Source: an uncultured Nitrosomonadales bacterium
Lineage (GTDB): Bacteria; Pseudomonadota; Gammaproteobacteria; Burkholderiales; Gallionellaceae
Direction of reading: 5' to 3'
Assembly: GCA_903878125.1 (NCBI GenBank)
Contig: CAIRGS010000101.1
Span: forward strand, 1 to 38,308
Length of the DNA: 38,308 nt
Positions 1-14,105 of this stretch are shown piece by piece. Under the pieces are notes generated by a model. It was not told the origin of the DNA and did not search any database. It worked only from the letters and a program-made list of their open reading frames with translations. The position numbers and the translations under genes were made by a program. Each line of letters opens with the position of its first letter. The stretch's first letter is position 1.

Positions 1-2007
1 TATCGCATCGACTGGTCTGAGTTTCGTCATGCATTCATTTTCACCCTCGAAAACACTGTCACGCAGGGGAAGTCATCCTTTACCCGCAAGGCAGTCGTCC
101 AGGCTGTTAGCGCAGGGCTGCTGGCACTGGGGGGAGGGCAGGCACTGGCCACCAACCTGATTTTTGATTCCAGTCCCTCAGCCATCACTACAGTGCTGAC
201 TGCAGACGACAGCTTGTTGGTTGGGGTAAATAACCCCGGCGTGAGCCTCACCATCGGGGCGGGTGGATCGGTGACGGTTAACCCCGGCGGGAATTCCGCC
301 ACCCTTGGTGTCAGCGCAACTTCCGACGAAAACAGCCTCAACGTCACCGGAAGCTCCGCCATATTGAGCGTAGCCGAGACTTTAAATGTCGGCTACGCGG
401 GCGCAAAAAATACCCTGACTGTTGGCCCCGGGGGCAGTGTCTCCGCTCTCGACATCTGGATCGGCGGACTGGCAGGGTCGAAGGATAATGCCGTTACCGT
501 AACTGGTACTGGCACGCTGAGTGCCACCAGCTATCTGATCCTGGGCTACGGAGATGGCAGCAACTCCTTGAATGTCCAGTCAGGCGGGCACGTGACCAAT
601 ACTGTTGACGCGGTCATCGGCTGGGTCGCGGGGGCGACAGACAATTTGGCGACGGTGACAGGTACCGGTTCTCTCTGGACGAACTCACGCATGTTCTATA
701 TGGGGTATGCCAGCAGCGGCAATCAACTTACGATATCCAATGGCGGCAAGGTCGCTGTCAATGTCAATAACCAGGATGCGCTGATTGGCGCAACGCCAGG
801 TGCTGACAACAACAAGATAGAGGTAACGGGCGCGGTGTCCGAGCTATCCAACTTGAACGGTACACTTTATGTCGGCCGTAGCGGTAACTCAAACTCGCTG
901 CAGATAAAAAGCGGTGGTCTTGTCACAAGCAAGAACGTCAGGATTGGCGGAGGAACCGGAGCCACCGGCAGTCCCAGCGGGAACGGAGCAATCGTCGACG
1001 GCGCGGGATCGATATGGAATATCGCTGGCACGCTTCGGGTTGGTGCGGGCGTGGCGGGCACCAATAGCGGCCTTGACATCACCAATGCTGGCGTCGTCAA
1101 TGTCACCGGCAACAGTTTCGTGGGTTATGACGCGACCTCAGACGAAAATCACGTGTTGATCAGTGGCGCGGGTTCCCAGCTTAACGCGAATGCTTTGACG
1201 ATAGGCTACGCGGCGGGCTCGATCAATAATGTGATGACCCTCTCGAACGGTGGGGCGCTGTCCGCTTCCGTAATTACCATCGGGGAATCGAGCGGACTTG
1301 TGATCGGCGCGGGCGGAGCATCGGGGGCTATCTCGACACCGATTACCATCACCAGCGCGATGACTGCTCCCTTTGTGAAATTCAACCATACCAATAGCAA
1401 CTACACCTTCGCATCGTCGCTCGCGGGCACCCTTGAGGTGATACATGACGGGTCCGGCACCACGAACCTTACTGGAACAAATACCTACACCGGGGCAACG
1501 ACCATCAATGCCGGTGTCCTGAATATAAACAGCATCAGCGCAACAAGCGCCATCACGGTCAACTCCGGCGGCACACTGGGTGTGGCGGCTGGGAATACCG
1601 GAACCGACATCGGCATCTACACGCAGGACGCGGCCGGCACCTTCCGCACCTATATTACAAACAACACCACTTTCGGTATATTGAATGTGCTTGGCACTGT
1701 AGGCATGGCCAGCAATGCCAGGATTGATGTTCAGGTCAACAACTGCGGTAATGTCACTCCAGGCACCACCTTTGCTGGCATCATTTCTTCCACTAACACC
1801 ATCAGCGTCAATTCATTCATCGTCACCGACAACTGTGCCGGTTTGGTCTTTACTGCGAGCTTGAGCGGGAATTCCCAAGCTGTGAATCTGGTTGCCAATA
1901 TTGCGCCTGCTGTATCCATTCCCTCCCTCTCGGAATGGGGCATGTTCTTTCTCTCCAGTCTGTTGGCCTTTGGGGCGGTCATCAGTCTGCGTCGTCAGCG
2001 CCAGTGA
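1..2007 (+). CDS. Exported repetitive surface protein with IPTL-CTERM tail, 5' end outside window
   Basis: The reading frame is open from base 1. No ATG, GTG or TTG lies in frame before the internal GTG at 193, so the true start is left of the window and the track start is internal. The first visible residues look like a signal peptide: a basic stretch (SSFTRK), a hydrophobic core and a cut near GGGQALA. The body is built of roughly 50-residue Gly/Asn/Thr-rich units alternating motifs such as GYAGAKNTLTVGPGGSV and GSKDNAVTVTGTG, like the T5SS/PEP-CTERM-associated repeat. One autotransporter-type strand repeat follows (GTNTYTGATTINAGVL). The last 30 residues carry SIPSLSEWGMFF, a hydrophobic stretch and RRQRQ, the IPTL-CTERM sorting signal. 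It is probably a surface or matrix protein processed by an exosortase-like system; its ligand is unknown. Confidence 0.85.
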   Translation, partial: YRIDWSEFRHAFIFTLENTVTQGKSSFTRKAVVQAVSAGLLALGGGQALATNLIFDSSPSAITTVLTADDSLLVGVNNPGVSLTIGAGGSVTVNPGGNSATLGVSATSDENSLNVTGSSAILSVAETLNVGYAGAKNTLTVGPGGSVSALDIWIGGLAGSKDNAVTVTGTGTLSATSYLILGYGDGSNSLNVQSGGHVTNTVDAVIGWVAGATDNLATVTGTGSLWTNSRMFYMGYASSGNQLTISNGGKVAVNVNNQDALIGATPGADNNKIEVTGAVSELSNLNGTLYVGRSGNSNSLQIKSGGLVTSKNVRIGGGTGATGSPSGNGAIVDGAGSIWNIAGTLRVGAGVAGTNSGLDITNAGVVNVTGNSFVGYDATSDENHVLISGAGSQLNANALTIGYAAGSINNVMTLSNGGALSASVITIGESSGLVIGAGGASGAISTPITITSAMTAPFVKFNHTNSNYTFASSLAGTLEVIHDGSGTTNLTGTNTYTGATTINAGVLNINSISATSAITVNSGGTLGVAAGNTGTDIGIYTQDAAGTFRTYITNNTTFGILNVLGTVGMASNARIDVQVNNCGNVTPGTTFAGIISSTNTISVNSFIVTDNCAGLVFTASLSGNSQAVNLVANIAPAVSIPSLSEWGMFFLSSLLAFGAVISLRRQRQ

Positions 2008-2065: not shown

Positions 2066-2151
2066 AAATGGGGACGTAGCCCAAATTATCCGATCCGGAT
2101 TACCCATACCTACCACGTGCCTACGCATAATATCTGGCTACGTCCCCATTT
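2066..2151. repeat. Inverted repeat with 16-bp perfect arms
   Basis: Arms AAATGGGGACGTAGCC (2066-2081) and GGCTACGTCCCCATTT (2136-2151) are exact reverse complements separated by 54 bp. It lies between the IPTL-CTERM gene and the cassette region. The sequence style resembles palindromes associated with Y1/REP transposases, but no transposase is present, so that is inference. It could also fold as a transcript-end hairpin for the upstream gene. Confidence 0.6.
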
Positions 2152-2164
2152 AATTTTCAGGGCA

Positions 2165-2196
2165 TTGACAACATGTAGCCGCGCAACTACAGTTGC
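2165..2196 (+). promoter_or_regulatory. Promoter and palindromic operator of the first toxin-antitoxin pair
   Basis: TTGACA (2165-2170), a 17-bp spacer and TACAGT (2188-2193) make a good sigma-70 promoter. The palindrome GCAACT-AC-AGTTGC (2183-2196) covers the -10 box, as expected for autorepression by the antitoxin. The toxin ATG at 2200 is only 6 bp past the -10 box, so the transcript may begin at the start codon. Confidence 0.6.
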
Positions 2197-2199
2197 TGC

Positions 2200-2495
2200 A
2201 TGATTGAAATTCGCAAAACAAACCTATTCGTGCAATGGCTTGATGCCTTGCAAAACCTCCAGGCGAGAGCGCGCGTCCAAGCAAGGATCGAGCGCTTGCT
2301 GCCGGAAACCCCGGTGATGTTGACCCAGTTGGCGAAGGTGTCTCTGAGTTGCGAATCAATTATGGTCCCGGTTATCGGGTGTATTTCAAGAAGCGGGGGC
2401 GAGAGCTGATTATTCTTTTGGCGGGCGGAGACAAGAGTACCCAAACCAAAGACATCAAGGCGGCCTTGCGCCTCGCACGCAATCTTTCGGAGTAG
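2200..2495 (+). pseudogene. HigB/RelE-type toxin, frameshifted
   Basis: The ORF from 2200 begins like the RelE/HigB-type addiction module killer family (MIEIRKTNLFVQWLDAL, then ARARVQARIERL) but leaves frame near 2298. The expected remainder continues in another frame: GNPGDVDPVGEGVSELRINY, GPGYRVYFKKRGRELIILL, and so on to TAG at 2493-2495. Restoring one base after CGCTTG would rejoin the frames, so a 1-bp deletion is the simplest explanation. The intact product would be a ribosome-dependent mRNA nuclease of about 98 residues. The antitoxin follows 7 bp downstream and is intact. The shift may be genuine loss of toxin, a sequencing error or, less likely, programmed. Confidence 0.75.
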
Positions 2496-2502
2496 AGCAA
2501 CC

Positions 2503-2802
2503 ATGACTACAACCGTTACCACTCGCTATGACGTTGCCGAACACCTCAGAACCCAAGAGGAAATGGCTGCTTACCTTGAGGCCTGCCTTGAAGAAGCAGA
2601 TGGAGATGCTGCATTCATTGCCAAAGCACTTGGCGATATTGCTCGCGCCAAGGGTATGTCACAGGTCGCGCGAGACGCAGGACTGTCCCGCGAAAGCCTT
2701 TACAAGGCGCTTTCCGGTGAGCGTAGCCCGGACTTCGACACCATCCTTAAAGTCATTGGTGCGCTAGGGCTGAAGTTACATGCCGAAGCCGGACACAGTT
2801 GA
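2503..2802 (+). CDS. HigA-like antitoxin (addiction module antidote protein)
   Basis: The 99-residue product has a helix-turn-helix in its second half (AKGMSQVARDAGLSRESLYK, then ALSGERSPDFDTILKVIGAL) and matches the short antidote family paired with RelE/HigB-type killers. It would bind the toxin and repress the shared promoter, probably at the palindrome over the -10 box. It starts 7 bp after the toxin frame stops, and the attC begins 8 bp after its stop, so the pair fills the first recognisable cassette. The reading frame is intact although its toxin is frameshifted. Confidence 0.85.
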   Translation: MTTTVTTRYDVAEHLRTQEEMAAYLEACLEEADGDAAFIAKALGDIARAKGMSQVARDAGLSRESLYKALSGERSPDFDTILKVIGALGLKLHAEAGHS

Positions 2803-2809
2803 CCAAGTT

Positions 2810-2872
2810 GCCCAACCTGACATTCAACCCGGACTCCGCAAAAGCGCGGAGCCGGTTAATTTTACGTTAGGC
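2810..2872 (+). other. attC site 1
   Basis: R'' is GCCCAAC (2810-2816) and R' is GTTAGGC (2866-2872), 63 bp in all. The centre folds as CTCCGC-AAAAGC-GCGGAG with one extra base on the left arm. It closes the first toxin-antitoxin cassette; the expected partner box GTTGGGC is not found at that cassette's left end. ATTCAAC at 2822 is an alternative R'' candidate. Confidence 0.8.
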
Positions 2873-2897
2873 CGCAGCAGTTCCTCTTCCCAAGACA

Positions 2898-3278
2898 ATG
2901 AGTAAGTTCGCTACAAAGTCGTTGCCAGTATTGCCTGATCTGTTGGCACCTGACGGTTCAGCAGTACGAGTTCTGCTCGCCATGCGCGGCGGCTCCATGG
3001 CTCACTTTGAGCTTGCAGCAGGCCAAACTTCGTTGGCCGTTGCGCATCGGACGGTCGAAGAAATCTGGTATGTCCTGTCCGGTCGCGGAGAAATGTGGCG
3101 AGCTGAAGGCGAACAAGAGAAGATTGCTGTCCTCGAGGCAGGCATTTGCCTCACCATCCCGGTGGGTACGCGGTTTCAATTTCGAGCGTCGACTACTGAG
3201 GGCCTTTGCGCAGTAGCGATCACAATGCCGCCTTGGCCGGGGCCTGAAGAAGCACAGTATGTTGTCGGCCCCTGGTAG
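2898..3278 (+). CDS. Cupin-domain protein
   Basis: The 126-residue product has the two cupin motifs: a first half with AHRTVEEIWYVLSGRGEMW, holding the His and Glu positions used for metal binding, and a second with GICLTIPVGTRFQFRA. No other domain and no signal peptide is visible, so it is a single-domain cytoplasmic cupin; the substrate cannot be told. In the second motif the usual histidine is replaced (VGTRFQF), so metal binding may be incomplete. It is the only gene in its cassette, starts 26 bp after the R' box and has no clear Shine-Dalgarno sequence, which is common for cassette genes. Confidence 0.8.
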   Translation: MSKFATKSLPVLPDLLAPDGSAVRVLLAMRGGSMAHFELAAGQTSLAVAHRTVEEIWYVLSGRGEMWRAEGEQEKIAVLEAGICLTIPVGTRFQFRASTTEGLCAVAITMPPWPGPEEAQYVVGPW

Positions 3279-3294
3279 TCGGCTCCAGAATGCG

Positions 3295-3354
3295 GCCTAA
3301 CCCTTCCTTCAAGCGGACCGGCCTTCGGCGGTCCGCTTAAGTCAAACGTTATAT
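3295..3354 (+). other. attC site 2
   Basis: R'' GCCTAAC (3295-3301) and R' GTTATAT (3348-3354), 60 bp. A strong central hairpin TTCAAGCGGACC/GGTCCGCTTAAG has the loop GGCCTTCGGC. R'' exactly complements the GTTAGGC box that opens this cassette. This is the most classic site of the array. Confidence 0.9.
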
Positions 3355-3404
3355 TTCACAGCCGCGACCGGGTGGTGGTATGGGGCCATCCACCCGGAGC
3401 GCTT

Positions 3405-4172
3405 TTAGTTACGCCCAGCGATCACGCCGCCATCAACGTCCCAAATTGCGCCAGTCACCCAGCTGGTATCGTCACTGAGAAGGAAGTCGATGGTTTTTGC
3501 AACATCCTCGGGTGTGCCGATTCGCCCAATCGGATGAAAGCTGTTGAATGTGGCAAGTGTTTCGTCAATTTTACTTGGGTCAATGAATGCCTTGTAAATG
3601 GGTGTTTTAACCACAGCCGGTGAAACTGCATTTACGCGAATATTGAGGTCAGCCAACTCCATAGCCATATGTTGTGTGAGTGCGTGTAGTCCGGCTTTCG
3701 CCATCGAGTATGCAGAGGAAGGCGTCACCTTAATGGCCTGCTGTGCCCACATTGATCCAATGTGCACAATCGAGCCACCGTCGTTCGCCGCCATGTTCTT
3801 AGCCACTGCCTGTGAAATGAAAAAGGTGGCACGGTTCAAATCCAGGTAGGTGTCATAGTCCTCATGTTCATGCTCAAGGAATGGCGTGGGCTTGAAGTAG
3901 CCCGCCGCGTTCACCAAGTATTTGATGTGGCGGCCGTGGTTCTCGGCAAAGGCAACGATGCGCTGCACGTCATTCCGTTCGTACAAGTTTGCTTGGAGGG
4001 TTTCAACATGGCCAAATGCAGAAAGTTCGTGCTTTGCCGTTTCCAGTTTTTCCGGCGAGTTGCCTACAATCACGGTTTTTATGTCGCGTTGCAGCAAGAG
4101 TCTCGCGGTTGCAAGACCCATTCCACTGGAGCCACCCACAATCAGGGCCAGGGGTTGTACCATGTTTTTCAT
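3405..4172 (-). CDS. SDR-family NAD(P)-dependent oxidoreductase
   Basis: The 255-residue classical short-chain dehydrogenase has a nucleotide-binding glycine motif near the N-terminus (GGSSGMGLA), NAAG at about residue 85, a catalytic serine region ([11 protein letters not shown]) and YSMAK with the Tyr and Lys. The tail [15 protein letters not shown] is typical. The start was moved from the track's 4247 to the ATG at 4172 because AAAGGTGATC lies just upstream and the SDR fold begins there. The gene runs against the cassette direction and is divergent from the HxlR gene, which probably controls it. The substrate is unknown. Confidence 0.88.
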
Positions 4173-4235
4173 CAGATCACCTTTTATCAGTAGTTGCAGG
4201 AGATCGCAGAGTATAGAATTCGGTAGCCTGCTGAA

Positions 4236-4280
4236 AAGCAGGTACAAATTGGTACGACAGTCACTTATTGGTACAAGTTG
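4236..4280. promoter_or_regulatory. Divergent control region of SDR and HxlR genes
   Basis: The 108-bp gap between the divergent starts holds three GTAC half-sites (4242, 4252, 4271) within GGTACAAATTGGTAC and ATTGGTACAA. Repeated, spaced palindromic cores beside an HxlR-type regulator gene suggest an operator; no binding evidence exists. Confidence 0.4.
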
Positions 4281-4622
4281 ATGAGCAGCCAGGATAAAAA
4301 ATTTTCTAGAAGATCAGCTCCCGAACGGAGCGCGCGTATGGTTGAGGCCATCTTTGGCTGTAAATGGTCACTTACCGTCTATCAGCTCCTAGCAAATGGC
4401 ATCCATCGGCCAGGTGAAATGGTGCGTAGTGTTGAGGGCCTAACAACGAAAGTGCTCAACGAGTGCCTTCGTAAAAACATGGAATTCGGTATCATTGAAC
4501 GCATCGCCTATGACGAAGCCCCGCCACGCGTTGAGTATGTGGTTACGCGGTTTGGCACGAAATTCATCCGCATCCTGGATGAACTAGAGAAGCTTCAGCG
4601 TGAGATCGAAAGTGAAATATAA
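4281..4622 (+). CDS. HxlR-family winged-helix transcriptional regulator
   Basis: The 113-residue product has the HxlR (DUF24) layout: [20 protein letters not shown], then [20 protein letters not shown] as the recognition helix, then the wing [12 protein letters not shown]. HxlR proteins are dimeric repressors or activators, often redox- or aldehyde-sensing, and commonly sit divergent from the oxidoreductase they control, as here. The track start is TTG at 4278; ATG at 4281 is preferred. Its TAA stop lies inside the R'' box of the attC, showing tight packing of the cassette. Confidence 0.85.
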
Positions 4623-4703
4623 CAACGCCATCAACTCGGACAGTAAAAAGCGGCGCGCCTTCGTCGCCCCGCTTTTTACTGCCGGTTATGGCGAACGTTA
4701 GGC
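4617..4703 (+). other. attC site 3
   Basis: R'' ATATAAC (4617-4623) and R' GTTAGGC (4697-4703), 87 bp. The core is a perfect 13-bp hairpin CAGTAAAAAGCGG/CCGCTTTTTACTG; AACGCCAT and ATGGCGAAC also pair. R'' exactly complements the unusual GTTATAT box at the start of this cassette. Confidence 0.85.
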
Positions 4704-4718
4704 ATTCGCAGCCAGCCC

Positions 4719-4747
4719 TTGTTGCGCACCGCGCAACGCGCTATCAT
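4719..4747 (+). promoter_or_regulatory. Promoter and operator of the HigBA cassette
   Basis: TATCAT (4742-4747) with TTGTTG (4719-4724) at 17 bp forms a plausible promoter. The perfect inverted repeat GTTGCGC-ACC-GCGCAAC (4721-4737) fills the spacer, a good place for HigA autorepression. The cassette therefore carries its own promoter. Confidence 0.55.
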
Positions 4748-4753
4748 TCACAC

Positions 4754-5032
4754 ATGATTACATCGTTTCGCCACAAAGGACTGCGAAAATACTTTGAATC
4801 CGGCAACTTGGCTGGAATCCAACCTGCACATGCTAATCGGCTCAAAATGCAGTTGGCGGCACTCGAAACGGCTCAAACTATCGAGGACATGGACATTCCC
4901 GGTTTCCGGCTTCACCCGCTAAAGGGAGGTGAGCGTGGGCGTTGGTCAATATGGGTAAATGGCAATTGGCGCGTCACGTTCGAGTTTGAGAACGGCAACG
5001 CATTTATTTTAGATTACGAGGATGATCACTAA
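4754..5032 (+). CDS. higB: HigB toxin (RelE/ParE superfamily)
   Basis: The 92-residue product MITSFRHKGLRKYFESG... has the HigB pattern: LKMQLAALETAQTIEDMDIP, then GFRLHPLKGGERGRWSIWVN and NWRVTFEFENGNAFILDYED. HigB cuts mRNA on the translating ribosome. The track start (4688) lies upstream of the attC R' box and was rejected; ATG 4754 gives the family-standard N-terminus. The stop overlaps the antitoxin start by one base (TAATG), so translation is coupled. The frame is intact, unlike the first toxin of the array. Confidence 0.88.
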   Translation: MITSFRHKGLRKYFESGNLAGIQPAHANRLKMQLAALETAQTIEDMDIPGFRLHPLKGGERGRWSIWVNGNWRVTFEFENGNAFILDYEDDH

Positions 5033-5325
5033 TGGCTATGCACAATCCACCGCACCCCGGAGCATTTATTCAAGAGGTTTATCTTGTGCCGAACGAAATT
5101 AGTTGCAGGGAACTCGCCCTCAAATTGGGGGTTGCCGCCTCGACCCTTAACCGCGTTTTGAACGAAGCCAGTGGCGTGAGTCCTGAAATGGCTCTCCGTC
5201 TTTCAAAGGCATTGGGACGCTCACCGGAAAGCTGGTTAACGATGCAAGACAATTACGATTTATGGCAAGCCAAGCAGACCGTGGACTTGAAGAAAATCCG
5301 CAAGATTGAATTCAAATATGCCTAA
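5032..5325 (+). CDS. higA: HigA antitoxin
   Basis: The 97-residue product begins MAMHNPPHPGAFIQEVYLVP, the hallmark of the HigA/VapI family, followed by a helix-turn-helix (CRELALKLGVAASTLNRVLN) and the conserved SPEMALRLSKALGRSPESW. It neutralises HigB and represses the pair's promoter, probably at GTTGCGC-ACC-GCGCAAC. It is translationally coupled to higB and its stop falls inside the R'' box of attC 4. Such pairs are thought to stabilise cassette arrays. Confidence 0.92.
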   Translation: MAMHNPPHPGAFIQEVYLVPNEISCRELALKLGVAASTLNRVLNEASGVSPEMALRLSKALGRSPESWLTMQDNYDLWQAKQTVDLKKIRKIEFKYA

Positions 5326-5381
5326 CCGACATTCAACCCCGACTCCGCAAAAGCGCGCAGCCCCTTACTTTTACGTTAGGT
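5320..5381 (+). other. attC site 4
   Basis: R'' GCCTAAC (5320-5326) and R' GTTAGGT (5375-5381), 62 bp. The core CTCCGCAAAAGCGCGCAG is nearly the same as in sites 1 and 6, so these sites form one subfamily. R'' exactly complements the opening GTTAGGC of the HigBA cassette. Confidence 0.85.
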
Positions 5382-5421
5382 TTCATAGCTTCAACCACCC
5401 CGGGCTGCTGTGGAGACTGCC

Positions 5422-6243
5422 ATGCCAAACTCAAAGATGACCATGTCCCAAATCGTTCGCGTGGCTCTCGCCTTCTTGCTGGCGACAACGCAACTTCCGG
5501 CGGCATTCGCCCTGGACAACGCGCCGGCGAGCGTCGTTCAGGAGCTTGCGCCATTCTCGTCGGATGAGGGCGTTGCTCGCCTTGCCCGATCGACTGCAAA
5601 AGTCGACTTTCCCGCGCTCGCCAATCAGTTCGAACCGCAATCGAACGCCGCCTTCTGTGGTCCTACGTCAGCGGCTATCGTGCTTAACGCGGTGCGCGGT
5701 CGCAGCGATGATCTGCCCCGCGATCGAAGCCGCTTGCGTCCTGAAGACTTTCGGTTTATTCCCGCCAAGTTCGACCTGACACTCCCTCGCTTCACTCAAG
5801 ATAACGTAATTACGAAAGGCGTGAAGACACGGGCACAAGTTCTCGGCGAGCCCACAACAATCAATGGAAAGCAGGTGGGTGACGGCGGCTACCAGGTCCG
5901 CCAGCTCGATGAAATGCTGAGGGCGAATGGTCTTGTCACCCGGCTTGTCATCGTCGATGACAGAAAGATTGAGCAGGACATTCGGACCGAACTGCTTGAG
6001 AATCTCAACAGGCAGGGTGATTATGTGATTGTTGCGTACCGACGCGCGGCCGAAGGCCAAAGGGGCGGCGGACATATATCACCTCTCGGGGCATACGATG
6101 CTGAATCCGACTCGTTCCTCGTTCTGGATGTAAACCCTGCAAGGGCTGGCTGGGTTTGGATGCCAACGGCAACGCTCATCAAGGGCATGCGCACCTTCGA
6201 CACGGTCGAAAACCGTGGGTACATATTGGTTCAATCACCGTGA
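5422..6243 (+). CDS. Exported phytochelatin-synthase-like cysteine peptidase
   Basis: The 273-residue product has a signal peptide (hydrophobic core VALAFLLATTQL, cut near AAFA-LD) and a papain-fold phytochelatin synthase domain. The nucleophile is Cys79 in NAAFCGPTSAAIVLNAV, the histidine is near 218 (GGGHISPLGAYD) and the aspartate near 236 (LVLDVNPARAGW). Bacterial homologues lack the plant C-terminal domain and mainly hydrolyse glutathione to gamma-Glu-Cys, with weak or no phytochelatin synthesis; that activity is inferred here. GGAG sits 6 bp before ATG 5422, which is preferred to the GTG at 5410. It is the sole gene of its cassette and points to thiol or metal handling in the periplasm. 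Confidence 0.85.
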   Translation: MPNSKMTMSQIVRVALAFLLATTQLPAAFALDNAPASVVQELAPFSSDEGVARLARSTAKVDFPALANQFEPQSNAAFCGPTSAAIVLNAVRGRSDDLPRDRSRLRPEDFRFIPAKFDLTLPRFTQDNVITKGVKTRAQVLGEPTTINGKQVGDGGYQVRQLDEMLRANGLVTRLVIVDDRKIEQDIRTELLENLNRQGDYVIVAYRRAAEGQRGGGHISPLGAYDAESDSFLVLDVNPARAGWVWMPTATLIKGMRTFDTVENRGYILVQSP

Positions 6244-6289
6244 GCCTTCTTCTTCTGCCGGCGGGAGCCGTACAATTTTACGCCGCGAG

Positions 6290-6379
6290 ACCTAACTCTA
6301 GGTGGAAAGGACGGGCGAAAGCGGGCGTCACTTTTCTCACGGCTGCCTCGCGCGCCCGCTTTTCACCACCACGTTGGCA
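6290..6379 (+). other. attC site 5 (atypical R')
   Basis: R'' ACCTAAC (6290-6296) exactly complements GTTAGGT at the start of its cassette. Long imperfect arms (GGTGGAAAGGACGGGCG against CGCCCGCTTTTCACCACC) lead to GTTGGCA (6373-6379), a poor match to GTTRRRY. The site is 90 bp. Confidence 0.7.
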
Positions 6380-6904
6380 GAAGAAAACTTTGCGCATGAA
6401 ATTTGTCATCATTGCGTTGACACCAGCGACCCAAGCCATCTGAAACCTTCGGATTCAGCAAAGCAGCGAATGGATGGGTGGATCGTATCGCTAAACGAAT
6501 GGGTAGAAAACCATCCAGGCGAACTAGAAAATACAACTGTCCAAACCAATCCTGATGAAGTAGCGGATGACGCGCAGCATTTCTACAACGATGTATCTCG
6601 ATCTCTACAAGATAGCCGGTCATCAAGACAAGCTCGTCTAGTAACTACTCCAAAAATACCTGATCGCATTCTCACCACGTCCACTTCATTTCGGCGAAAT
6701 CCAGATGTTGTTGCTGAGGTTTTATTGAGGGCAGAAGGAAAGTGTGAGGGTTGCTTTCAGCCAGCACCATTCGCGCGCGCATCGGATGGAACGCCATACC
6801 TTGAAGTACATCACCGTGCCATGCTTGCAGCGGGTGGTGAAGACACAGTGGCCAATGCCGTTGCCTTGTGTCCAAACTGTCATCGCGCAGTACACTATGC
6901 ATAA
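6374..6904 (+). CDS. HNH endonuclease-domain protein, start uncertain
   Basis: The C-terminal third is an HNH zinc-type nuclease: CEGC, then YLEVHHRAMLAAGGEDT, then ALCPNCHRAVHYA. The family includes McrA-like and phage or restriction-linked nucleases; the target is unknown. The N-terminal part is Glu/Asp-rich and contains EICHHC, a possible second metal knuckle. The frame is open back to GTG 6302 through the whole attC, so the start is unclear: TTG 6374 is the first start codon in the cassette and is used here, while ATG 6470 would give a shorter protein. No Shine-Dalgarno sequence supports either. The stop lies inside the next R'' box. Confidence 0.7.
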   Translation: MAEENFAHEICHHCVDTSDPSHLKPSDSAKQRMDGWIVSLNEWVENHPGELENTTVQTNPDEVADDAQHFYNDVSRSLQDSRSSRQARLVTTPKIPDRILTTSTSFRRNPDVVAEVLLRAEGKCEGCFQPAPFARASDGTPYLEVHHRAMLAAGGEDTVANAVALCPNCHRAVHYA

Positions 6905-6961
6905 CCCTACGCTCAAGCGGGTCTGCGCAAAAGCGCGCAGCCCCTCAATTTTACGTTGGGC
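6899..6961 (+). other. attC site 6
   Basis: R'' GCATAAC (6899-6905), core CTGCGCAAAAGCGCGCAG and R' GTTGGGC (6955-6961), 63 bp. R'' does not match the GTTGGCA at the start of the HNH cassette, so that cassette was rearranged or one box has mutated. Confidence 0.75.
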
Positions 6962-6979
6962 CTCTTAGAGAACTAAGCT

Positions 6980-7462
6980 ATGCGTTTGTGGACACTACAT
7001 CCTTGTTACTTGGACTCTCGTGGCTTGGTAGCTCTCTGGCGCGAGGCGCTACTGGCGCAAGCCGTTCTCGGTGGGCATACGCGCGGATATACCCATCATC
7101 CCCAGTTATGTCGTTTCCGCGACACTCCATCGCCTATGGCAGCGATCGCAACATATTTGCATGCTGTCCTTTCAGAAGCGAATGTTCGTGGATACCGGTT
7201 CAATGCAACAAAGATTCTTTCGGAACGAAATGCAGTACAAATCGTGGCTAGTCGTGGGCAGCTTGACTACGAGTGGAAACACCTTGTTAAAAAGCTACGT
7301 GCTCGTGATCCTTCATGGTTTGAACAATTCGCCACATTAACCGAGCTCAAACCACATCCGATGTTTCTGATTGTCTCCGGCCCCATCGCAGAGTGGGAAG
7401 TCACGCAACCCGACCCATCAAGCCACCGGACGCTGCGCGATAAAGCCGCGCAACGCCGATGA
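6980..7462 (+). CDS. Pyrimidine-dimer DNA glycosylase family protein (T4 endonuclease V-like)
   Basis: The 160-residue product begins MRLWTLHPCYLDSRGLVALW and continues LLAQAVLGGHTRGYTHHPQL and CRFRDTPSPMAAIATYL, the signature of the Pyr_excise (PF03013) family. The phage T4 member cuts the glycosidic bond of UV dimers and then the backbone; most bacterial relatives are untested. The N-terminal Thr/Arg region and the His/Arg-rich helix are present. The last 20 or so residues (QPDPSSHRTLRDKAAQRR) are encoded by DNA that looks like a worn attC, so the native C-terminus may have been replaced. It opens its cassette 19 bp after R'. Confidence 0.8.
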   Translation: MRLWTLHPCYLDSRGLVALWREALLAQAVLGGHTRGYTHHPQLCRFRDTPSPMAAIATYLHAVLSEANVRGYRFNATKILSERNAVQIVASRGQLDYEWKHLVKKLRARDPSWFEQFATLTELKPHPMFLIVSGPIAEWEVTQPDPSSHRTLRDKAAQRR

Positions 7463-7477
7463 TGTCAAAAGCTAGGC
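7403..7477 (+). other. Degenerate attC-like site 7 overlapping the glycosylase 3' end
   Basis: ACGCAAC (7403-7409), TCAAGCC, arms CGGACGCTGCGC/GCGCAACGCCG and GCTAGGC (7471-7477) follow attC order and length (75 bp). Both boxes are off consensus by one or two bases. It would separate the glycosylase cassette from the GyrI-like one. Confidence 0.45.
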
Positions 7478-7510
7478 AGTCCGGCATTTCACCAGCTTAG
7501 AGATATTAAA

Positions 7511-7967
7511 ATGGATGTTCAAATCGTCAACTTTCCAGAAACCAAGGTTGCGGTATTAGCACACAGTGGCTCTCAAGCATTGGAGCATGAATCTGTCCGA
7601 AGCTCATTGCATGGCGTCTTGAAAATCGTCTACCACCCGACAGGCATCGCAATTATGGGGTGCATACAACGATCCGCGTACAACGCCACCCGCAGAATAC
7701 CGAGTGGATTTTTGCATATCGGTAGAGCATGACGCTTCGCCCAATTCACAAGGCGTAATAAACAGATTATTCTTGCTGGTCGTTACGCTGTTATGCGTCA
7801 TTTTGGGTCACGCAAAACATATCGGCAGCGGTATATCTTTACGAGGTCTGGTTAACCAATAGCGGTGAAACCCTACGAGATTTTCCAATCTTTTTTACTA
7901 CGTAAATGTCGGCCCACAAATTCAAGCACGCGCAATGATTACAGACGTATGCCTCCCACTGCTGTGA
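7511..7967 (+). pseudogene. GyrI-like/AraC effector-binding-domain protein, multiply frameshifted
   Basis: The start MDVQIVNFPETKVAVLAHSG is in frame from 7511, but the family continues in other frames: LIAWRLENRLPPDRHRNYGV, then PRTTPPAEYRVDFCISVEHD, then an IILAGRYAVMRHFGSRK-like part, then YLYEVWLTNSGETLRDFPIF and a YVNVGPQIQA-like end closing with ITDVCLPLL and TGA at 7965. At least four shifts are needed. Intact relatives are small ligand-binding GyrI-like proteins related to the gyrase inhibitor SbmC and to Rob C-termini. The track ORFs in this stretch are fragments of it. The attC behind it is also worn, so this is an old part of the array. Confidence 0.7.
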
Positions 7968-8011
7968 GATCTCAAATGCATGAAGAATCAGTGGTGGCGA
8001 GTAAACTAATA

Positions 8012-8071
8012 AAAACTACGTTCAAGTGGGACTTGCGCAAAAGCGCGCAGCGGCTTAGTTCCATGCTAGCC
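8012..8071 (+). other. Degenerate attC-like site 8
   Basis: TTCAAGTGGGACTTGCGCAA and GCGCGCAGCGGCTTAGTT keep the core shared with sites 1, 4 and 6, and GCTAGCC (8065-8071) stands where R' should be. No good R'' box is left. Confidence 0.5.
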
Positions 8072-8185
8072 GAAAGAAATGTCAGGTCAACTATAGGGCG
8101 TCTCTATAAACTGCCCATAGAATTTACACGCTATGTCAGCCAGCTGTCGCTGTGAAATGTTATATTCCGGTGCGATCATGAACGA

Positions 8186-8386
8186 GTGGCAAGCGATGAG
8201 AAAAGTAAAGCAACCCGGATTGCTGATATGGCCGAACGGACAAACAAGTTGACCAAGATGGGCGACCCGCTGGTTGGATTGAACGCCAAGATTGACTTGG
8301 AAGCCTTTCGCCCCGACCTGAACAGAATCCATGAGAAAGAGCGCAAGAGCAACGCGTGCTGCCACATTGACCGAAGAGCAGATTGA
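8186..8386 (+). pseudogene. N-terminal fragment of an IS5-type transposase
   Basis: The fragment (GTG start) reads MAEWTNKL-like MAERTNKLTKMGDPLVGL then NAKIDLEAFRPDLNRIHEKE, the N-terminal DUF772-type domain of IS5/IS1182 transposases. It ends abruptly after RKSNA; the DDE catalytic domain is absent. A following out-of-frame scrap (LTEEQIELQF) may be a later piece joined by deletion. No terminal inverted repeats were found. Confidence 0.65.
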
Positions 8387-8419
8387 ATTACAATTTTAGT
8401 TATAGCGAAGGAGTAATCC

Positions 8420-8674
8420 ATGGCAAACATTCGACATTATTTTGATGCGGGTTCATTGCTCGTCATCTTAATAACACTTGCTCTTTTCCTGGCCGCGCTC
8501 TACTTCACTGGGTTTACTCACGATCTATTACTCGAAGCTGGTGTATTTCTGGTGTCGGTGAAGTTGATCTTGATGTCGTACAAAAATGCAGTTGTATCAG
8601 ATAAGCTGCATAATGAGTTGGCTGAGATTCGTTCCCTGATACAAGAAATGAATAACAAATCGAGGTCAAATTAA
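8420..8674 (+). CDS. Small two-helix membrane protein of unknown function
   Basis: The 84-residue product has a strong Shine-Dalgarno sequence (AAGGAG) ahead of ATG 8420. Two hydrophobic segments are visible (SLLVILITLALFLAALYFTG and AGVFLVSVKLILM), with a short polar link HDLLLE and a charged, helical tail (SDKLHNELAEIRSLIQEMNN) that could form a coiled coil in the cytoplasm. I recall similar short proteins only as hypotheticals. It lies between a transposase scrap and a worn attC; cassette membership is likely but not shown. Confidence 0.7.
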   Translation: MANIRHYFDAGSLLVILITLALFLAALYFTGFTHDLLLEAGVFLVSVKLILMSYKNAVVSDKLHNELAEIRSLIQEMNNKSRSN

Positions 8675-8853
8675 AGCCTGACGGGTAAGGTTGGATTGTG
8701 ATCGCGAAGAGAGCCACAATCTGAGCCGTTTGTTCTACAAGCCCGGTGAGGGCAATGGGGGGACGGAAAATGCAGAGTATGCGGCGGCGCTGATGCCTGC
8801 ATTTATTGTCCCAAATAGCGCAGTGAATTCAAACGTTAAGTTAGTGGAGACTC
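8675..8853. other. Gene-free stretch ending in an R'-type core site
   Basis: No credible ORF is seen. GATTGTG/CACAATC (8692-8722 region) forms a hairpin soon after the membrane-protein stop. GTTAAGT at 8835-8841 fits GTTRRRY exactly and opens the OsmC cassette. A matching R'' box is not found, so the attC here is incomplete. Confidence 0.45.
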
Positions 8854-8856
8854 ATG

Positions 8857-9294
8857 ATGCAAGACTTTCCTCATCACTACCGAGTTGCGGCGAATGCGGT
8901 TCCAGATGGCGATGTTAGCCTTTCGGCAGAGAAGCTGGAAACACTAGCTTCGGCACCACCGCAGGAGTTCGGTGGGCCCGGAGATCGTTGGTCCCCCGAG
9001 ACACTATTGGTGGCGGCTGTCGCGGATTGCTTTATTCTCGGTTTTCGGGCCATCGCCAAGGCTTCGAAGTTATCGTGGTTGTCGTTGAACTGTGACGTCG
9101 AAGGTACCCTCGAACGCATGGAAGGAACGATGAAGTTCACAGAGTTCAAGGTGAATGCCGTGCTTATCTTGCCCGCAGATACAGACGAGCAAAGAGCACG
9201 ACGCATACTTGAGAAAGCCGAAGAGAGCTGTCTAATTACAAACTCTCTATCCGGCGCAACACACTTGCATGCCGTGGTGTTGGTCAAGCCCTAG
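8857..9294 (+). CDS. OsmC-family protein
   Basis: The 145-residue product follows OsmC-like order: PPQEFGGPGDRWSPETLLVA, then AVADCFILGFRAIAKA with the first cysteine, LNCDVEGTLERMEGTMKFTE, and ILEKAEESCLITNSLSG with the second cysteine. OsmC/Ohr proteins reduce organic peroxides with the paired cysteines; the OsmC-like branch is less well known. GGAGA at 8846 is 6 bp from ATG 8857 and only 3 bp from ATG 8854, so 8857 is chosen. It is the only gene in its cassette and adds to the thiol-redox flavour of the array. Confidence 0.87.
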   Translation: MQDFPHHYRVAANAVPDGDVSLSAEKLETLASAPPQEFGGPGDRWSPETLLVAAVADCFILGFRAIAKASKLSWLSLNCDVEGTLERMEGTMKFTEFKVNAVLILPADTDEQRARRILEKAEESCLITNSLSGATHLHAVVLVKP

Positions 9295-9304
9295 TCATGA
9301 CGCA

Positions 9305-9363
9305 ACCTAACAATGAAATGAAGCCCGGTTGGGCTTGGCAGACGAGGAATTCGAACGTTAGTT
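9305..9363 (+). other. attC-like site 10 with an internal REP-like palindrome
   Basis: ACCTAAC (9305-9311) and GTTAGTT (9357-9363) bound 59 bp. R'' differs by one base from the ACTTAAC expected from this cassette's start. The core AATGAAATGAAGCCCGGTTGGGCTT (25 bp, 9312-9336) belongs to a palindromic repeat found three more times in the window. Confidence 0.6.
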
Positions 9364-9480
9364 AGCAAAACCAGAGTAAAGCAGGCCCTAAAAAACTCAT
9401 CACCCACTGGCAGATTTTGACTTATGCTTCATCCCCAAGGTCTGCATGTGGCGGCCCCGTCAATCTTGAAGGAGAACAAC

Positions 9481-9768
9481 ATGGCATATGGAATCGTTCA
9501 TTATTTTCCTGGTGGTACGAAAAATCAATACGAAGCAACAATCGCAGCAGTGCATCCAGGCGGAAGTGGTCTGCCTAGGGGCCAGACTTTCCACGCAGCT
9601 GGCGCATCAGCAGGGGGGTGGACAATCGTGGCTATTCACGATTCTCAGGAGAGTTGGGAGAAGTTCCGGGATGAAATTCTTTTGCCCCGAATGCAACAAG
9701 GTATCGAAGGCGGGTTCACTACCCCGCCAGAAGAGACAGCCTTTGAAGTCCACAACCTACTTTCGTAG
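9481..9768 (+). CDS. Small protein, possibly of the dimeric alpha-beta barrel type
   Basis: The 95-residue product MAYGIVHYFPGGTKNQYEAT... was given a start at ATG 9481, not the track's 9424, because GAAGGAG lies 7 bp upstream. The pattern (short strand, helix after YEATIAAVHP, HAAGASAGGWTIVAIHDSQE, then SWEKFRDEILLPRMQQGIEG) resembles stand-alone ABM-like or ferredoxin-like folds, which bind or oxidise small aromatics. No catalytic residues can be assigned. It seems to be the last cassette gene. Confidence 0.7.
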   Translation: MAYGIVHYFPGGTKNQYEATIAAVHPGGSGLPRGQTFHAAGASAGGWTIVAIHDSQESWEKFRDEILLPRMQQGIEGGFTTPPEETAFEVHNLLS

Positions 9769-9882
9769 CGCGGTTGGGCTTATATAAATTCGACGATTTG
9801 GTTATCGGCGGAAAGTCAATAATTGGAGCGGTAGTCGGGGGGCGTTCTTCAGCCGGATCGCGCCCCCAGCATGATGTTAGCC
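9769..9882. other. Right end of cassette array, convergent hairpin
   Basis: A GGGGGCG...CGCCCCC stem lies between the last cassette gene and the convergent TPR gene. GTTAGCC at 9876-9882 resembles a final R' box and overlaps the TAA of the TPR gene. Either could mark the array end; the evidence is weak. Confidence 0.35.
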
Positions 9883-12884: not shown

Positions 12885-14105
12885 ATGAAGAAACATAATA
12901 TTGAACTAAATAAAAAATGGTTGGTTTTGGTGCTGAGCGTATTTCTTACTGCCTGTTCCATTTTCTCCAAGCCCAGGCCGCCAGTTGTGTCACGCCCTCA
13001 ACCAGTTGTGTTGCCTCCCAAAGTTGTACCAGCACCCGTAGCAGGAACGCCTGCCCCGTTGTTTATGGTGAGTAAGTGGGAGATGCTGCCGGATTGGCAA
13101 ACGCTCGACCTTGCATCCTCCCAAACTGCATTTCTGCAAAGCTGTCGTGTGTTGAAAAAAAAGCCGCACTGGCAGGAGGTATGTGTTCAGGCCGAACAAT
13201 TGGGGGTTAATGACAATGTCAGACTGCGTGCATTTTATGAAGAATGGTTTACTCCTTATCAACTGCTGAATCCGGACGGCAGCGAGCAGGGAATGATTAC
13301 CGGTTATTACGAGCCGTTGCTCAAGGGCAGCCGTTTCAAGACATCGCGCTTCCAATATCCTTTGTATGCCGCGCCGAATGATTTACTCACGATCGATCTG
13401 GGCGGAGCCTATCCGCAACTAAAAGACCTGCGCTTGCGTGGCCGCTTGCAGGGCAAACGCGTCGTGCCCTATTACAACCGTGCAGAAATCGATGCTGGTG
13501 TCGGAGCGTTCACGGGGAACGAATTGTTCTGGGTGGAGAATGAAATTGAGTTATTTTTTCTGCAAATCCAAGGTTCCGGGCGCATTGAATTGCCGGATGG
13601 CAAGCAGGTAAAAGTCGGTTATGCAGATCAAAATGGCTACCCTTATGTGTCCATCGGCAAAAAGTTGGTTGAAGCAGGCGAGCTTAAGCTTGAAGAAGCC
13701 TCCATGCAGGGCATTAAGGGTTGGGCCGAGAAAAATCCGGATAAAATTAATAAATTACTGGGACAGAATCCCAGCTACGTATTTTTACGCGAATTGCCGG
13801 ATGGTCTGTCCGCACCGTTGGGTGCGCTGGGCGTGCCACTTACCAAGGAATACAGCATTGCCGTAGATCCGCGCACCATCCCGCTGGGCGCGCCAGTCTT
13901 TCTCGCTACGACCTATCCCAATGATAGCGCACCACTTAACCGTTTGATGCTGGCGCAAGACACGGGCGGTGCCATCAAGGGCGCTGTGCGCGCGGATTTT
14001 TTCTGGGGCTTTGGCGAATTTGCGGGAGCGCAGGCGGGTAAGATGAAGCAACAAGGGCGGCTATGGGTGCTGTTTCCGAAAGGTGGGAAGCCGATGTTGA
14101 ATTGA
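12885..14105 (+). CDS. mltA: Membrane-bound lytic murein transglycosylase A
   Basis: The 406-residue lipoprotein has a signal with lipobox LTAC (Cys24), a Pro/Val-rich linker, the MltA double-psi barrel domain (GYYEPLLKGSRF, FWVENEIELFFLQIQGSGRI) and the C-terminal 3D domain with its aspartates (MLAQDTGGAIKGAVRADFFW). MltA cuts the MurNAc-GlcNAc bond in peptidoglycan and forms 1,6-anhydromuropeptides, anchored to the outer membrane. Length fits the family. It is transcribed towards the minus-strand block. No clear Shine-Dalgarno sequence precedes ATG 12885; AGGA is about 20 bp away. Confidence 0.95.
   Translation: MKKHNIELNKKWLVLVLSVFLTACSIFSKPRPPVVSRPQPVVLPPKVVPAPVAGTPAPLFMVSKWEMLPDWQTLDLASSQTAFLQSCRVLKKKPHWQEVCVQAEQLGVNDNVRLRAFYEEWFTPYQLLNPDGSEQGMITGYYEPLLKGSRFKTSRFQYPLYAAPNDLLTIDLGGAYPQLKDLRLRGRLQGKRVVPYYNRAEIDAGVGAFTGNELFWVENEIELFFLQIQGSGRIELPDGKQVKVGYADQNGYPYVSIGKKLVEAGELKLEEASMQGIKGWAEKNPDKINKLLGQNPSYVFLRELPDGLSAPLGALGVPLTKEYSIAVDPRTIPLGAPVFLATTYPNDSAPLNRLMLAQDTGGAIKGAVRADFFWGFGEFAGAQAGKMKQQGRLWVLFPKGGKPMLN

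Follow-up and report, generated by a model that had tools for sequence, protein, structure and literature searches.

The 38,308-nucleotide window analysed here, which comprises the entire contig C101 of a genome assembly of 297 contigs, contains a genuine integron gene-cassette array, and this array probably belongs to a sedentary chromosomal integron in a 'Candidatus Nitrotoga' species, of which it would be the distal end, already in partial decay. The host genome was placed in this genus of the Gallionellaceae by means of orthologues of the lytic transglycosylase MltA, whose gene flanks the array on the right, and its closest relative by the same protein is the genome G018 (95% identity). 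Nitrotoga is a genus of nitrite-oxidising bacteria found in freshwater and wastewater.

The attC sites of the window were identified with two covariance models. Model R1 was trained without window sequence on nine attC sites that came from congeners and from C213, another contig of this genome. It yielded six matches in the window, each of them on the + strand, and up to E=10 neither strand of the 38 kb gave any other. Model R2, trained on 47 non-window sites including that of aadA1, recovered eight sites between 2810 and 8071, again exclusively on the + strand and with E values from 7e-16 to 0.06; six of them are strong, that at 6290-6379 is weak (E 0.0012) and that at 8014-8071 marginal (E 0.06). 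As a positive control, the attC site of aadA1 from plasmid R100 reached 43 bits with R1. A plain motif scan combining R''/R' boxes with an energy cut-off produced many false pairs and was replaced by the covariance models, and an Rfam search of the window gave no match. The folding z-scores of the bottom strands are -3.4, -4.4, -8.1, -0.3, -1.6, -2.7, -2.4 and -0.1 for sites 1 to 8, and bulged bases are present. The sites belong to mixed types, sites 1, 4 and 6 being mutually alike and sites 2, 3, 5 and 7 of other types. At the distal sites 7 and 8 the GTT of the core box is lost; their counterparts in the genome G014 score 58 and 46 bits, respectively, with an intact core at the counterpart of site 7. 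The initial annotation, which had described an integron-type array of about eight attC-like sites in a single orientation at 2200-9882, is thus supported by the covariance models as regards the nature of the array, the number of sites and their orientation. The right end has to be drawn further left, as neither R1 nor R2 detects an attC site in 8072-9882 and the segment 8408-11126 is colinear with G018 at 92% identity. The genes in 8072-9882 are possibly former cassettes.

A second line of evidence is provided by the boxes delimiting each cassette. In the four consecutive cassettes 2-5 the opening R' box is the exact reverse complement of the closing R'' box, namely GTTAGGC (2866)/GCCTAAC (3295), GTTATAT (3348)/ATATAAC (4617), GTTAGGC (4697)/GCCTAAC (5320) and GTTAGGT (5375)/ACCTAAC (6290). 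This pairing, including the aberrant GTTATAT/ATATAAC, had already been pointed out from the sequence and is borne out by the box comparison together with a shuffle test: exact pairs occur in four of the six testable cassettes against 1.0 expected from shuffles (p 0.006), and in 15 of 27 against 2.4 expected when the window is pooled with four other arrays, a number unreached in 50,000 shuffles.

Contig C101 carries no integrase, and an attI scan of the window found no attI. The absence of an integrase noted in the initial annotation therefore holds for the contig and not for the genome, in which a genome-wide search for intI revealed one gene above the integron-integrase cut-off (TIGR02249, 484 bits, C213:4061-5002). 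The encoded protein is 57% identical to IntI1, contains no internal stop and possesses at R137, H268, R271, H294 and Y303 residues identical to those aligned in IntI1, which constitute the catalytic set (R, H, R, H, Y) of tyrosine recombinases. On C213 five cassettes come after attI, whose end lies at about 3908; the first four are closed by ACCTAAC, GCATAAC, GCCTAAC and GCCCAAC, each matching its own opening box, and the fifth has no recognisable attC. The attI-adjacent cassette (L019:3474-3866) encodes a 130-residue protein of short glycine-rich repeats without a Pfam match. The cassettes end ca. 360 bases before the contig end, which carries a fragment that, judged by eye, resembles the start of a REP-type (repetitive extragenic palindromic) transposase. 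Contamination as the cause of the two contigs was judged unlikely, the sequences on both being 91-96% identical to G018.

The relationship between C213 and the window is indicated by synteny in relatives. In G007 a single contig carries the C213 flank on the side of the α/β hydrolase gene together with a remnant of intI, attC sites and the flank with MltA, and in G018 the MltA contig starts within intI (residues 1-298) and the hydrolase contig with the last intI residues. Consequently, C213 and the window correspond to the two ends of one integron in these two genomes. Moreover, intI adjoins the same hydrolase-gltX/cysS block in seven congeners, the array adjoins mltA in both G018 and G007, and the ends of C213 and C101 are compatibly oriented. 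On these grounds the assembly has most likely divided one sedentary chromosomal integron, of which the window would be the distal end, and physical linkage of C213 and C101 in the present strain is predicted from the gene order of its relatives. As separate observations, the break in the G018 intI after residue 298 (L055:1-130, G018:C21) looks by eye like the end of an insertion sequence, and G007 contains a second attI-like copy (L060:3097-3136; G007:C25:12108), which lies in inverted orientation a few hundred bases upstream of mltA and points towards the integron from its opposite end.

Several observations weigh against this assignment. C213 and the window are unjoined in the assembly, and between the array ends lie at least the transposase-like fragment and a surface-protein gene, neither of them recognised as a cassette. 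Cassette 1 lacks its opening box, whereas a related toxin-antitoxin cassette in G317 retains it ca. 20 nucleotides before the start of homology, which implies that a rearrangement has truncated the array at its left edge. In G006 and G008 the hydrolase and MltA genes are 50 kb apart with the hydrolase gene inverted, so that further rearrangements have affected the locus within the genus, and the attC variety in the array appears greater than usual for sedentary integrons. Accordingly, the array might be a true CALIN (cluster of attC sites lacking an integron integrase; PMC8618304, PMC12444791), physically separated from the C213 integron by the rearrangement at the left edge and at most served in trans. 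CALINs are common, being present for example in about half of the Xanthomonas genomes (PMC12444791), and both the contig without integrase or attI and the truncated cassette 1 would fit. Nevertheless, we regard such a separation as unlikely in view of the single integron embracing both flanks in the closest relative and in G007, and of the compatible orientation of the two contig ends.

Exchange of cassettes at the exact crossover point is evident from the comparison of the window with G018. Cassettes 3, 4 (in part) and 7 are common to both and arranged in the same order with differing cassettes between them, and the homology begins or ends exactly at G|TT. The gene order in relatives is not conserved and changes cassette by cassette, in contrast to the fully conserved order that would have refuted the initial annotation. 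Cassette 3 is 99.8% identical to G018 over 1,355 bases compared with 92-93% in the chromosomal flank, which signifies that it moved between the lineages after their split. The attI sites of C213 and G018 are identical over the 62 bases up to GTTAG and are followed by unrelated sequences. Sites and cargo are likewise found in other combinations: the attC of cassette 3 (4617-4703) occurs without the genes of the short-chain dehydrogenase/reductase (SDR) and the HxlR regulator in many genomes of the class, in several of them with 80-94% identity, these two genes stand beside other attC sites in G268, and in G018 the HigB portion of cassette 4 follows another 5' portion. A plasmid search with the array returned, among the matches listed, only distant ones, mostly to the SDR gene.

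These data also bear on the question whether cassette movement has ceased and the window holds relics only. Such a dead array would accord with the decayed cores of the two distal attC sites, with the frameshifts in the toxin gene of cassette 1 and the GyrI-like gene of cassette 8, and with the state of intI in the genus, which exceeds the cut-off in 12 of 19 genomes including this one and is present in the remaining ones as broken copies or not at all above the cut-off. It is, however, difficult to reconcile with a cassette that two species share at 99.8% identity although their flanks differ by 7-8%, and with an intI free of stops and with its catalytic residues kept; we consider it improbable. 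The frameshift in cassette 1 and the indels in cassette 8 are possibly assembly errors, yet several indels concentrate in one cassette. Finally, chance inverted repeats between ordinary genes, for which the sites 4, 5 and 8 that fold no or little better than shuffles might be adduced, are refuted by the R1 search and by homology switches exactly at the predicted crossover, along with the agreement of independent covariance models, the single orientation and the lack of matches elsewhere, and may be dismissed.

For an integron divided between C213 and the window, we propose the following scenario, derived from the known mechanism of the integrase family. The tyrosine recombinase IntI encoded on C213 would recombine the folded single-stranded bottom strands of attC, insert circular cassettes at attI and excise them again, thereby reshuffling the array. 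New cassettes would enter beside attI on C213 and older ones would end up in the window, in which decay has reached two attC sites and two genes. C213 and C101 would form one locus, interrupted in the assembly by a gap to which the surface-protein gene at the window's left end also belongs. The integrase is predicted to be still active on these sites.

Table 1. Array, edges and right flank in the window (positions in C101)
Feature	Position	Strand	Assignment and remarks
PATR-repeat and IPTL-CTERM surface-protein gene	193..2007	+	PF12951, PF18203; frame open to contig start; left of array
Inverted repeat TGGGGACGTAGCC ... GGCTACGTCCCCA	2069..2148	.	13-base arms; left edge of array, between IPTL-CTERM gene and cassette 1
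Cassette 1, left end lost	2158..2866	+	HI1420-type antitoxin 2503-2802 (PF21716) and frameshifted toxin from 2200
attC 1	2810..2872	+	R1 63 bits, R2 70 bits
Cassette 2	2867..3348	+	Cupin protein 2898-3278 (PF07883); exact R'/R'' pair
attC 2	3295..3354	+	R2 42 bits
Cassette 3	3349..4697	+	SDR oxidoreductase 3405-4172 (-), HxlR regulator 4278-4622 (+) (Pfam); exact R'/R'' pair
attC 3	4617..4703	+	R2 42 bits; bottom-strand folding z -8.1
Cassette 4	4698..5375	+	HigB-like toxin 4754-5032, helix-turn-helix antitoxin 5032-5325 (PF05015, PF01381); exact R'/R'' pair
attC 4	5320..5381	+	R2 37 bits
Cassette 5	5376..6373	+	Phytochelatin synthase-like protein 5422-6243 (PF05023); exact R'/R'' pair
attC 5 (weak score)	6290..6379	+	R2 23 bits, E 0.0012
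Cassette 6	6374..6955	+	HNH endonuclease domain protein, longest open reading frame 6302-6904 (PF01844); R'/R'' mismatched
attC 6	6899..6961	+	R2 58 bits
Cassette 7	6956..7471	+	Pyrimidine dimer DNA glycosylase-like protein 6980-7462 (PF03013); also in G018, G014
attC 7, decayed core GCTAGGC	7408..7477	+	R1 58 bits, R2 36 bits; G014 core GTTAGGC
Cassette 8	7472..8065	+	GyrI-like pseudogene; several single-base indels in alignment with G014
attC 8, decayed core GCTAGCC	8014..8071	+	R2 16 bits, E 0.06; G014 counterpart 46 bits
Three genes beyond array	8072..9882	+	8420-8674, OsmC 8854-9294 (PF02566), 9424-9768; without attC match
MltA lytic transglycosylase	12885..14105	+	PF03562; right flank, conserved chromosomal anchor

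The cargo of the array and its edges are compiled in Table 1. The intact copy of the GyrI-like gene in G014 matches PF06445 and PF14526 (Cass2, "integron-associated effector binding protein"). The phytochelatin synthase-like cassette has just two short DNA-level matches in 369 genomes of the class. At the left edge, the surface-protein gene (window 1-2007) has no full-length relative in 18 congeners, where only matches to its C-terminal motif were obtained, and the arms of the adjoining inverted repeat (2069-2148) have no further copy in the genome.

Outside the integron proper, an attI sequence scan disclosed integrase-less attI copies in 11 Nitrotoga genomes, the present one among them, with up to five per genome; a control scan with the reversed attI pattern gave no matches. 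Among the 24 integrase-less attI-like loci examined (within L204-L231), 11 are followed by an attC site and some keep 130-290 bases of the intI side. Three of them (L207, L218 and L226, two of which are orthologous) keep the first 45-57 intI codons; the homology breaks off at the same position in each, near codon 52, which gives the impression that a truncated unit of defined extent was copied. The attI copy on G013:C5 occupies the usual place of the integron beside broken pieces of intI. Five orthologous pairs, representing four sites, match at 90-94% identity in the upstream flank as far as G|TTA, beyond which the next 300 bases are unrelated (44-49% in global alignment). One member of such a pair is the orphan attI in the window's own genome, located after the thiC gene (C135:1821-1848, L229:1522). 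A flank preserved to G|TTA and then replaced by unrelated DNA is the expected outcome of insertion at attI by an integrase supplied from another locus. The reverse case is found in L204 (G006) and L208 (G003), where the same cassette follows the attI core and the flanks before it are unrelated, which looks like a joint transfer of attI core and cassette. The Nitrotoga integrons might accordingly be distributed, one integrase serving its own attI and array, of which the window would be the distal end or a detached part, as well as, in trans, scattered orphan attI sites each with their own cassettes; our judgement of this proposal, which is built on sequence comparison, is evenly balanced. In several carriers of orphan attI sites intI is no longer intact.

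The present analysis reveals, in a nitrite-oxidising genus, an integron whose cassettes were recently exchanged; no integron report on this genus was found in the literature searched. Its cargo includes toxin-antitoxin pairs, a phytochelatin synthase-like gene and a DNA repair glycosylase, and the sister genomes allow gain and loss of cassettes to be read at base resolution. Should the orphan attI sites be confirmed, several chromosomal insertion loci would be maintained by a single integrase, which also bears on the origin of integrase-less arrays. No comparable case was found in the literature searched, the nearest being the delta-attI-type cassettes (PMC12901181) and the attG sites (Loot et al. 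2024, as cited in PMC12901181). The orphan sites are more novel than the array itself and the part most worth further work.

The integron as such is ordinary and of a known kind, and it shows cassette exchange with unusual clarity. Sedentary chromosomal integrons of Proteobacteria are represented by that of Xanthomonas downstream of ilvD (PMC12444791) and by the chromosomal integron of Nitrosomonas europaea (Leon and Roy 2003, as cited in PMC2426708). The Nitrotoga system shares with them intI, attI and a one-orientation array at a conserved chromosomal place, as well as the decay of intI in some lineages and toxin-antitoxin cassettes; it differs in its host, in its locus between the α/β hydrolase gene and mltA, and in attC types that appear mixed within the array and not uniform. 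At the level of the contig, the window resembles a CALIN in having at least two attC sites and no integrase, but the genome possesses an integrase, which lies at the other end of the same locus according to synteny in two relatives. With delta-attI cassettes and attG the orphan attI sites have in common that attI-derived or unusual sites away from the integrase-adjacent attI take part in cassette insertion. In contrast to both, they are neither degenerate genomic sites nor resistance cassettes and constitute recognisable attI copies at orthologous positions behind which the DNA has been exchanged.

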